Shown piece by piece: positions 54,151 through 56,762 of a DNA stretch of 64,000 nt. Positions within the stretch are counted from its first letter, which is position 1, and every line of letters begins with the position of its first letter. The notes under the pieces are model-generated. The model saw nothing but the letters and a program-made list of their open reading frames with translations. It did not search any database and was not told where the DNA came from. The DNA is from Arenicella chitinivorans (GTDB lineage: Bacteria; Pseudomonadota; Gammaproteobacteria; Arenicellales; Arenicellaceae): positions 124,001 to 188,000 of the forward strand of contig NZ_BMXA01000005.1 in assembly GCF_014651515.1 (NCBI RefSeq). The letters are read 5' to 3'. A program made the position numbers and the translations under genes.

Positions 54151-55598
54151 TGTTTACCTGGGACAAACACTGGGAGGTCGTCATCGGCCTCGAAGTTCAC
54201 ACACAACTGCTCACCAAATCAAAAATTTTCTCCGGCAGTTCTATTGCTTATGGCGCTGAGCCGAATACACAAGCTAGCGCGGTCGATATCGCCTTGCCCG
54301 GCGTGCTACCGGTAATGAACCGGGAAGCAGCGAGACTGGCGGTGAAATTCGGGCTGGCCATTGGTGCACACATCAACCAGCGCAGTGTGTTTGCGCGTAA
54401 AAACTATTTTTACCCTGACTTGCCTAAAGGCTATCAGATCTCGCAAATGGAGCTGCCGATTGTTGGACTCGGCCAGCTCGAAATCGAGACCGAACAAGGC
54501 AGTAAAGTGATCGGCATTACCCGCGCACACTTAGAAGAAGACGCAGGCAAGTCACTACACGAAGACTTTCAGGGTCAGACCGGCATTGATTTGAATCGCG
54601 CCGGCACACCGCTGCTCGAGATTGTGTCGGAGCCTGACATGCGTTCGCCCGCCGAAGCCGTGGCGTACTTACGAAAGCTGCATAGCCTGGTACGTTACAT
54701 AGAAATCTGCGACGGCAATATGCAGGAAGGCTCGTTTCGTTGCGATGCCAATGTCAGCGTGCGCCCAGTTGGTCAGACAGAACTTGGTACGCGAACGGAA
54801 TTGAAAAACATCAACTCGTTTCGTTTCGTTGAACGGGCGATCGAATTCGAAATTGAGCGCCAAATCGATATTTTGGAAGACGGTGGTCAAGTAGTACAAG
54901 AGACCCGCCTGTATGATCCAGACAACCACGAGACCCGGTCAATGCGTTCCAAAGAAGACGCGCACGATTACCGCTACTTCCCAGACCCAGATCTGCCACC
55001 GATGGTGCTGGATGATGCTTTCTTGGAAGAGGTGCGCGCCACCCTGCCGGAACTGCCAGCGGCAAAACACGCCCGGTTCGTGGCCGACTACCAACTCAGT
55101 GATGCCGATGCCCTGTTATTAACCGCAGACCGCAGTACCGCCGATTTCTTCGAGCAGGTGGCCACGGCTACGCGTGCCGACAGTAAAACCGTGGCCAATT
55201 GGATGGCTGGCGAATTGTTTGCCAACCTTAACAAATCGGAACTCGATATCGCCGACTCACCGATCTCTGCCGCCCAGATGGCAACTTTGCTTGATCGATT
55301 GCAAGACAATACGCTGTCGGGTAAAACCGCGAAGCAAGTGTTTGCTGCCCTCTGGGCGCAGGAAGGTGATGTAGACCAGATCATTGAGTCGAATGGTCTA
55401 AAGCAGATTACTGATACTGGCGCCATTGAAGCCATCGTCGACGAGGTGATTGCGTCCTGCCCTGACCAGGTACAACAATTTAAGGACGGCAACGATAAGG
55501 TCATCGGTTTCTTGGTTGGGCAGGTTATGCAAAAGTCCAGAGGCAAAGCAAATCCACAAATGGCGAACCAAATGCTGCAAGAGAAAATGAAATCATGA
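54150..55598 (+). CDS. gatB: Glutamyl/aspartyl-tRNA amidotransferase subunit B
   Basis: 482 residues. [22 protein letters not shown] at the start, [10 protein letters not shown], the [12 protein letters not shown] segment and [17 protein letters not shown] are hallmark GatB motifs; a C-terminal YqeY-like tail domain (about 330-480) contacts tRNA. It activates the mischarged residue with ATP and transfers ammonia. Overlaps the following thioesterase gene by 4 bp. Confidence 0.97.
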
Positions 55599-56389
55599 GT
55601 ACGACTTCTTTTTCACAACTCGTCGCTGGCGTAGTGGCAGCGAAGAATGATCGTTGGCGTGTGACCATTCCAGCGGACTGGATGCAGGGACGCACTACCT
55701 ATGGAGGACTCTCTGCGGCGTTGTGTCTGCAAGCAGTGCAGCAACAATTCCCTGATCTGCCGCCTTTGCGCTCCGCACAAATAAATTTTATTGGCCCTGC
55801 TGGTGGCGAAGTCGAAATCGAAGTGAGCGTATTGCGCCAAGGCAGATCGGTTACCTACATCATGGCAACGGCTACCCTCGCGGGGCAAATCGCCACGCAT
55901 GCCGTTTTCTGCTTCGGTGCCAACCGTGAATCACGACTCGATGCCGATTACACTGCGTCACCAACCGTGCCCAATGTTGAGCAAGCTGGCCCATTTTTCA
56001 CCGCAGCCGGTGCCCCCGTATTTACCCAACATTTCGAATGTAAGCTCGCGAGCGGCGGACAACCGGTTACCGGTTCCGACGAACACGAGCACCATATCTG
56101 GGTTCGACATAAAGACACCGAGGCTAACGGCATTCCAGCGATGTTGGGTATTGCCGATATGCCACCGCCTGCTGTACTGCCCATGTTTTCAGAGCCGGCA
56201 CCAATCAGCTCGATGACCTGGAGCCTCAACTTTCTGAGTGACGACTTCGAAGTCGCCGATAATTGGTGGCTCATCCGCACTGCCGCCGAAAATGCCCGTC
56301 ATGGCTACTCCAGCCAAGACATGCAAATCTGGAATGAAGCTGGTGAACTTGTCATCAGCGCCCAACAGAGTGTGGCTTTGTTCTATTGA
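55595..56389 (+). CDS. Acyl-CoA thioesterase, double hot-dog (TesB-like) family
   Basis: 264 residues. Two hot-dog domains: the first with [19 protein letters not shown] and the beta strands [25 protein letters not shown], the second with [47 protein letters not shown]. It hydrolyses acyl-CoA esters; chain-length preference is unknown. Translationally coupled to gatB (ATGA overlap), though no functional link is evident. Its stop codon forms the start of the first tRNA-tail repeat. Confidence 0.85.
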
Positions 56390-56537
56390 TTCGCCCTACG
56401 GGCAGCCTGCGGCCGTGCAAATCCGCTCCAGCGGATTTGTCGAACCTTACGTGGGGTTCTCTTCAAGTCCGCCGAACTCCCCACACAAAAAAACCGGCTT
56501 AGAGCCGGTTCTTTTGTATGGCGCGCCCGGAGGGATT
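56388..56537. repeat. tRNA-tail tandem repeat, copy 1
   Basis: 150 bp, about 98% identical (three differences) to 56555-56704, with a period of 167 bp. On the minus strand each copy begins with the 19-nt 3' end of the tRNA-Arg gene (AATCCCTCCGGGCGCGCCA), then a terminator hairpin, a spacer, and a perfect CAAATCCGCT/AGCGGATTTG hairpin. This copy has only the tRNA tail; the rest of the tRNA is replaced by an unrelated 17-bp spacer (56538-56554). The far end reaches into the thioesterase stop codon. Confidence 0.9.
56487..56510 (-). terminator. Duplicated terminator in repeat copy 1
   Basis: AACCGGCT and AGCCGGTT stem with a 3-nt loop; identical to the tRNA-Arg terminator in copy 2. It would end transcripts that read through the first terminator and, from the other side, could attenuate gatB-thioesterase read-through. 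Confidence 0.7.
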
Positions 56538-56554
56538 ACTCATCGCATCCATGC

Positions 56555-56704
56555 GATTCGCCCTACGGGCAGCCTGCGGCTGTGCAAATCCGCTCCAGCG
56601 GATTTGTCGAACCTCACGTGGAGTTCTCTTCAAGTCCGCCGAACTCCCCACACAAAAAAACCGGCTTAGAGCCGGTTCTTTTGTATGGCGCGCCCGGAGG
56701 GATT
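56555..56704. repeat. tRNA-tail tandem repeat, copy 2 (adjoining the intact tRNA)
   Basis: Second 150-bp copy. Its right end (56686-56704) is the 3' end of the intact tRNA-Arg gene. The layout (direct repeats of about 170 bp, each carrying exactly the last 19 bp of the tRNA) is that of E. coli tyrT, whose 178-bp repeats yield rtT RNA. The similarity is architectural; no sequence match to rtT is claimed. Confidence 0.9.
56654..56677 (-). terminator. Intrinsic terminator of tRNA-Arg
   Basis: AACCGGCT (56659-56666) and AGCCGGTT (56670-56677) form the stem; on the minus strand it is followed by a seven-base T-run (complement of 56654-56660). It lies 8 bp beyond the encoded CCA. Confidence 0.85.
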
Positions 56705-56762
56705 CGAACCCCCGACCACTTGGTTCGAAGCCAAGTACTCTATCCAGCTGAGCTACAGGCGC
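56686..56762 (-). tRNA. tRNA-Arg (anticodon UCG)
   Basis: 77 nt on the minus strand with encoded CCA. Acceptor GCGCCTG pairs with CGGGCGC (one G-U), the D arm reads GCTC...GAGT, the anticodon arm is CTTGG-CTTCGAA-CCAAG with anticodon TCG, and the T loop is GTTCGAATC. It reads CGN-family arginine codons, mainly CGA/CGG. An intrinsic terminator follows. The last 19 nt are duplicated 167 bp downstream. Confidence 0.97.

Follow-up and report, generated by a model that had tools for sequence, protein, structure and literature searches.

A predicted tandem pair of tRNA-linked repeats behind tRNA-Arg(UCG) of Arenicella chitinivorans shares a covarying four-hairpin core with a widespread family

Behind a tRNA-Arg(UCG) gene of Arenicella chitinivorans lies a repeated feature that, judged by its sequence, consists of two tRNA-linked repeats (TLRs) in tandem, with a core of the type found in RrB and not of the RtT type. 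The part shared by TLRs is a core of about 70 nt (element E) with four hairpins and very strong covariation, which is new, and the family is far more widespread than known. Since this one covarying element, with matches in roughly half of the class genomes sampled, keeps two GGA loops while its stems change, the function and origin of TLRs become directly testable. The accessible part of PMC8144298, in which the E. coli family is named, describes TLRs as known in that species since 1978, with 22 copies at ten loci, a hallmark tail of 18-19 bp that exactly matches the tRNA or rRNA before it, and no general function; an early claim on rtT and starvation is stated there to have been retracted later.

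The window, that is the whole stretch of 64,000 nucleotides that was analysed, carries two repeat copies of 150 nt with 98% identity and a spacing of 167, exactly the two 150-bp copies with a period of 167 bp and three differences described in the initial annotation. The TRF score of this repeat is 613, and it is therefore not due to chance. Copy 1 (56555-56704, minus strand) takes in the final 19 nt of the tRNA gene itself and copy 2 (56388-56537, minus strand) is distal to the tRNA, both being delimited by repeat search and TRF. Along the minus strand, which carries all the features given below, the order is tRNA, terminator-like hairpin, short 5′ part, 69-nt core and 19-nt tail, then repeated.

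The host gene at 56686-56762, recognized as tRNA-Arg(UCG) by ARAGORN and Rfam RF00005, is intact. It is followed by terminator-like hairpin 1 (56651-56685), seen in the fold as a 16-bp stem with a T-run; the terminator scanner flags this hairpin on the plus strand only, and in the minus-strand fold the T-run is absorbed into the 16-bp stem. The 5′ part of the first unit (56607-56650) ends in GGTTCGA and leads into core copy 1 (56538-56606), which comprises 69 nt and four hairpins and ends in GAGT. Two models, both built without E. coli sequences, were used to score cores: R1, from 10 sequences of the window's genus and family, includes tail positions, and R2, from 40 cores, has no tail (E-only). 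Core copy 1 reaches 111.3 bits with R1 and 79.5 bits with R2, both of which contain this sequence. Its hairpin 1 (56585-56606), supported by the repeat search, the loop counts and the fold, has GGA in the loop, and its hairpin 4 (56542-56557), placed by the R1 match and the loop counts, has the CsrA-site-like loop CATGGATG. The tail that follows (56519-56537) reproduces the 3′-terminal 19 nt of the tRNA (A58-A76) with 0 mismatches, which confirms the exact tail initially reported for each copy; the junctions read GGTTCGA[core]AATCC, so that the core interrupts a T-loop copy at GA^A. Beyond the tail stand terminator-like hairpin 2 (56484-56518), a copy of terminator-like hairpin 1 according to the repeat search and the terminator scan, and core copy 2 (56388-56439; R2 46.9 bits), at the repeat end: the distal repeat copy stops inside the last core hairpin (hairpin 4), with no tail of its own beyond. 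The strong hairpin CAAATCCGCT/AGCGGATTTG, initially noted together with a terminator, is found in both copies, along with the terminator-like hairpin. For the first window unit read as RNA, the folding energy is -80 kcal/mol (z -5.9). Repeat copy 2, truncated as it is, overlaps at its end the last 2 bases of the stop codon of a 264-aa open reading frame (55595-56389).

The feature has three of the marks by which TLRs are recognized. It lies directly downstream of a tRNA gene, the R1 match 72 nt and the core 80 nt past the end of tRNA-Arg; its 3′ end, over a length of 18-19 bp in TLRs, is identical to that of the upstream gene at 19 of 19 positions; and homology of sequence and structure to the E. 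coli TLRs is given by R1 and R2, which find rtT and rrB. The initial comparison with E. coli tyrT was borne out, with tail copies at +178, +356 and +534, all identical, and it extends from the plan to homology, R1 finding all four tyrT/tyrV repeats at E-values of 5.2e-15 to 8.4e-9. With R2, RrB in the rrnB terminator region reached 55.9 bits (E-value 4.4e-12) with both GGA loops (48.3 bits with R1), three rtT repeats reached 27.6-30 bits without GGA loops, and the tyrT-tyrV spacer copy reached 14.8 bits (E-value 0.036). Eight further K-12 stretches were also compared. In the K-12 csrA-serV-argV cluster, tail copies with 0-1 mismatch follow argV, argZ and argQ at +133 to +135, and the lys genes have tail copies with 1 mismatch; in stretches L296, L299 and L301-L303, no tail copy was found at up to 3 mismatches. 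The arg and lys cores match weakly, at 17.1 bits or less with R2 and at 17.6-26.3 bits with R1, tail included. The rrnB junction reads GAGTAGGA[core]AAACTGCC against the intact GAGTAGGGAACTGCC, GGA^A lying in a copy of the 5S end; when the final 18 nt of rrfB were searched by script for another occurrence at up to 3 mismatches, none was found, and by eye the shared 18 bases span the gene end (AACTGCCAGGCATCAAAT). Across 5426 E. coli genomes, the rtT core with its tail occurs in 4695, at 1 to 14 places (median 3).

Beyond E. coli, R1 matched 34 of 61 relatives at an E-value of 0.01 or less and 133 of 276 genomes of the class at 1e-4 or less, and R2 matched 71 of 397 genomes of the phylum at 1e-6 or less, some of them beyond the class; these counts are lower bounds, the best 12-68 candidates per genome having been scored under strict filters. 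The Rfam RtT family (RF00391, gathering cut-off 45 bits) covers a small share of this diversity, reaching its cut-off in 18 of the 276 class genomes and in 0 of 3 genomes of the window's genus. It gave no match to the window unit (L002) at an E-value of 10 or less, nor to the window's own genome, and scored 22.6-29.6 bits on the relatives L045, L051, L054 and L070, below the 45-bit cut-off. A tail-free sequence pattern was found in 15 stretches, whose hosts include an uncultured Arenicella, Microbulbifer, Porticoccus, Halopseudomonas, Thalassolituus and a Pseudomonas. Our literature search, which covered mostly sources other than subscription journals, found no report on these elements beyond Enterobacteriales and Pasteurellaceae; in the latter direction, the accessible part of PMC4986893 places RtT members near tRNA-Asn and tRNA-Lys in Actinobacillus.

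The four hairpins are held by compensatory change. In an alignment of 127 distinct hits fitted to the model, 96.2% of cells pair and 22 of 22 pairs have changed on both sides (574 cells), a result that 0 of 500 shuffles reach; slid controls gave at most 0.067, against 0.577 for the core pairing. A MAFFT alignment of 40 cores (A6), not fitted to structure, still gave 95.7% pairing and 19 of 22 pairs changed on both sides (162 cells), again with 0 of 500 shuffles. G-U cells number 61 and A-C cells 19 under a model scoring that tolerates G-U, an asymmetry that favours folding of the core as a single strand, in the sense read here. The core ends in GAGT, GAAT, GAGC or GAAC, among rows selected by the end GA[AG][TC].

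Against these changing stems, two loops are kept. GGA stands in the loops of hairpins 1 and 4 in 104 and 105 of 127 rows (alignment A4), 76 and 75 of 77 (A5) and 43 and 42 of 44 (A7), counts that are somewhat inflated by models seeded with sequences nearly all of which have GGA in these two loops. The corresponding counts for hairpins 2 and 3 are 4 and 2 of 127, 6 and 10 of 77, and 3 and 2 of 44. For hairpin 4, 93 of 127, 66 of 77 and 41 of 44 rows agree with CA(N)GGA(N)G, and the median distance between the two GGA is 44-45 nt. The core thus has what is sought in a CsrA/RsmA site, namely GGA in hairpin loops with an ANGGA-type consensus: according to the accessible part of PMC7652899, CsrB repeats read CAGGA(U/A/C)G and the high-affinity site of RsmE is a hairpin with an ANGGAN loop. 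Core loops 1 and 4 look like candidate docking sites for CsrA/RsmA, and this predicted role is the most useful prediction to be drawn from these cores. For E. coli, the accessible part of PMC8144298 reports that RrB is transcribed and binds CsrA in vitro in dependence on its GGA motifs, that a CsrB/C predictor scores below 0.01 for the other 19 (tRNA) TLRs, and that deletion of the three rr genes has only a modest effect on CsrA phenotypes. Among the Rfam families, only tRNA reaches its gathering score in the window, with no CsrB/RsmX family, and rsmX scores 39.6 bits on the relative L070, the cut-off being 56.

The relation between core and tail was quantified on 196 R1 hits, which reduced to 83 distinct units preceded by a tRNA at a distance of at most 260 nt, and of at most 120 nt in 64 of them; 1 of 129 and 4 of 72 hits had been left out beforehand, all second loci of places already counted. 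Compared with the host tRNA, the tails of these 64 units show 0 mismatches in 36 cases, 1 in 8 and 3 to 10 in 20. The 44 units with well-matching tails (at most 2 mismatches) span 15 tRNA types, and the repeat period is similar, 163-186, at many tRNAs. The suggestion that the tyrT plan recurs on other tRNAs is thereby upheld, although not as a novelty, because TLRs of E. coli are already in print (PMC8144298, accessible part). When the tail was taken out of the search, 30 R2 loci were examined, each the best hit of its genome and one of them the window's; 9 had a tRNA within 150 nt and 21 had none, and 7 of 16 matches to the tail-free pattern had a tRNA within 250 nt. Since random positions would lie near a tRNA in fewer than 1% of cases by a rough estimate, tRNA genes are strongly preferred but not required.

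What the sites have in common is the junction GA^A, which is shared by T-loops, D-loops, the 5S end and other sites. A mirror arrangement was found in which cores lie upstream of a tRNA, in copies of its 5′ part, with the intact tRNA 16-218 nt downstream; these cores sit in D-loop copies (L122, 84-346; L132; L088; L131; L116) or in T-loop copies (L092, L095, L188). Among 42 junctions with no tRNA detected within 400 nt, from a set picked by the GA[AG][TC] end after 41 hits without it and 35 duplicates were dropped, position -2 is G in 33 and position -1 is A in 37; TTCGA stands on the left in 12 of the 42, some of which are orphan tRNA tails. In genomes G168 and G179 (L192, 1313-1726; L197, 524-1294), the core lies within an open reading frame that we take to be the gene for a DNA-binding protein, at the junction GTGGA[core]AATCC, and L196 and L199 have the same flanks as this core. 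The frame reads ..LARGHRWLAMVD / SGEARTLSEVAEREG.., into which the core brings a G-, R- and P-rich peptide.

Genome G039 harbors many copies of a MITE with terminal inverted repeats AGCCCGCATTTCTCACC (L210-L239), in which the core is present or absent. Among the best 40 of 281 candidates, at least 11 places match the query only as far as position 79 and again from 148 on, a single base separating the two parts, and four MITE copies read directly have GGGCTGGAGTGAG where filled copies have GGGCTG[core]AGTGAG. Because the MITE occurs with and without it, the core is a discrete unit; these empty sites may go back to a single core insertion followed by spread of the MITE. The initial annotation had proposed that tRNA 3′ tails seed such repeats. 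The conserved part is instead a structured core at GA^A, and the same core occurs at GA^A without tails, upstream of tRNAs, within a protein gene and inside a MITE. The tail therefore follows from the position of the core and is not what seeds the repeat.

Bare cores in head-to-tail arrays with a period of 72-74 nt were observed at L270 (1429-1572), L290 (1501-1792) and L291 (1033-1176). A second hairpin module (TTCCATCCTTCGGTCCGTAAACGGCACATCCATG..) is nested in or beside the core at L124, L111, L107 and L070, its reverse complement again having GGA motifs. A Y1 transposase, co-occurrence with which is a mark of RAYT-linked REP elements, was matched in 109 of 133 genomes with E and in 81 of 143 without (raw counts, genomes of any size), and 24 E-bearing genomes had no match, so that the linkage of E to this transposase is weak.

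The stretch 5′ of the core resembles the reverse complement of the T-arm and tail of the host tRNA in 27 of 44 units (p<0.05), and a forward copy in 12 of 44; an example from E. coli is GGGGAAGGATGAGAAGCTTCGA (19/22). An inverted copy is not claimed for the window, because it was not detectable in the window unit (p 0.60) and because the best overall match fell on the unit's own tRNA in no more than 8 of the 44 cases. In a ViennaRNA duplex test of pairing between the 5′ region and its own tail, own-tail specificity was obtained in 13 of 49 units only, and the inverted copy is the better reading of that region. Two further ideas were weighed and dropped, a closing helix that mimics a tRNA and a role of the inverted copy in guide-type targeting.

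The search of the genome for the unit at other tRNAs, recommended with the initial annotation, returned by DNA comparison one more copy, the third and a diverged one, at G000:C2:1036056. The gene upstream of it is tRNA-Arg(ACG), whose tail is repeated at +169 with one mismatch, and tail-free R2 gives the same picture, with three cores at an E-value of 1 or less among the best 150 of 636 candidates, all at tRNA-Arg genes. A generic repeat dispersed away from tRNAs had been named from the outset as the finding that would speak against a tRNA-borne origin; it describes 21 of the 30 tail-free loci, but not the other 9 nor the three copies of this genome. The third copy sits in a csrA - tRNA-Ser(GCT) - tRNA-Arg(ACG) cluster with csrA present. 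A core was found in the csrA - tRNA-Ser/Arg cluster of 11 of 15 genomes (G000, G004, G005, G013, G015, G020, G046, G260, G277, G312, G332), a sample drawn with R1 that hence gives no measure of enrichment; the remaining four, which have the cluster (G030, G038, G048, G056), had no R1 match anywhere in the genome. The loci of the 11 clusters with a core are L011, L070, L118, L121, L085, L135, L157, L164, L204, L208 and L209. Only presence is claimed for these cores, because the R1 tail was seeded mainly with Arg and Ser tails and could produce many Arg(ACG)/Ser(GCT) loci.

At the tRNA-Arg(TCG) locus itself, compared in 15 genomes chosen by an earlier DNA match, a 3′ core match was present in 9 (one decayed, 23.8 bits), a 5′ core only in 1 and none in 5, two of these five coreless loci ending at contig starts. 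The core is dispensable, given these coreless loci and the decayed one. The two window copies differ from each other at 3 of 150 positions and from the copy of G006, which has a single core at tRNA-Arg(TCG), at 11 and 12 of 150. With so few differences between the window copies and a single core in G006, the tandem step looks recent, and the 167-bp unit appears to have been duplicated within this lineage.

We lean, without great assurance, towards a reading of the window feature as a tandem TLR pair in which E was inserted at GA^A of a T-loop copy and then duplicated in tandem, forming a putative two-site CsrA/RsmA RNA. The core, moved by some enzyme, would have entered the GA^A of a copy of the tRNA T-loop, so that the rest of the T-loop, the T-stem and the acceptor became the 19-nt tail, whose first A may come from the insertion. 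The intact tRNA would remain upstream, insertions that destroy a tRNA presumably being lost, and the 167-bp unit would then have been duplicated in tandem in this lineage. Transcription here would require read-through past the tRNA terminator, which may be rare because a strong terminator-like hairpin precedes each core; E would then fold as an RNA with two GGA-loop hairpins about 45 nt apart, one CsrA/RsmA dimer could bind and hold both, and the tRNA-like tail would offer a familiar end to tRNA 3′ processing enzymes. A wider proposal, which we doubt more than we believe, makes the TLR core a phylum-wide mobile RNA module with two putative CsrA/RsmA sites; by landing in copies of tRNA and rRNA genes, it would tie the transcription of stable RNA operons, the csrA-tRNA cluster included, to Csr/Rsm activity.

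It is a lesser but serious possibility that the core is only a hairpin element, selfish or mobile in the past, for which duplicates of tRNAs are tolerable landing sites; its GGA loops would be kept because the mobilising enzyme reads them, and it would have no function as RNA. Such an element would be expected to show the dispersed copies, some in a protein gene and a MITE, the presence, absence and decay at the same tRNA across genomes, the tandem core-core arrays of L270, L290 and L291, and the many decayed tails (20 of 64 units with 3-10 mismatches) that were found, whereas E. coli RrB, which has the same two loops and for which transcription and CsrA binding are reported (PMC8144298, accessible part), and the asymmetry of G-U over A-C argue against it. 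More remote, and in our view unlikely, is the integration of the whole unit of about 167 bp at tRNA position 57/58, where its tail would rebuild the tRNA 3′ end in the manner of a miniature integrative element and tandems would be accretions. The recurrence of tail and terminator on either side in L044 and L051, the similar period at many tRNAs and the tandem arrays of E. coli are consistent with this scheme, but the core also stands alone at GA^A without a tail, heads take the place of tails on the 5′ side, and the tail differs with each tRNA type, so that each tRNA would need its own element.

We regard as very improbable that the tRNA 3′ tail itself seeds tandem repeats by slippage or recombination. 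The arrangement does recur at many tRNAs with exact tails, and the second copy in the window is best explained by ordinary tandem duplication in view of the few differences between the copies and their greater distance from that of G006; yet cores at different tRNA types are homologous, cores without a tail occur, and slippage fails to explain a common covarying core. As an origin, tail seeding is largely refuted, and it stands for the copy-number step only.

Among known systems, the window feature is close to the E. coli TLRs (rtT at tyrT/tyrV; argV/argZ/argQ; the lys spacer), which likewise lie behind a tRNA, with an identical tail of 18-19 nt and tandem copies (PMC8144298, accessible part). 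The rtT core is homologous to the window core, but the window keeps GGA in two loops where rtT has none; the host is Arenicella and, unlike in the E. coli set, tail-free and 5′-side relatives exist. Within the group formed by RrA, RrB and RrF (rrnA, rrnB, rrnD), of which rrnB was the one compared, RrB shares the core of the window and both GGA-loop hairpins, 48 of 74 aligned positions being identical, and differs in lying behind 5S rRNA instead of a tRNA. GGA hairpin loops are also common to sponge RNAs of the CsrB/RsmX type, although the window core has only two such sites. The Rickettsia palindromic elements and the REP/RAYT elements have no obvious gene of their own. They too are short hairpin elements located between or inside genes, as described in the accessible part of PMC3733652, where the tags GTAG and CGTC are named; the core studied here has four hairpins and, in the rows picked by their GA[AG][TC] end, closes with GAGT, GAAT, GAGC or GAAC.
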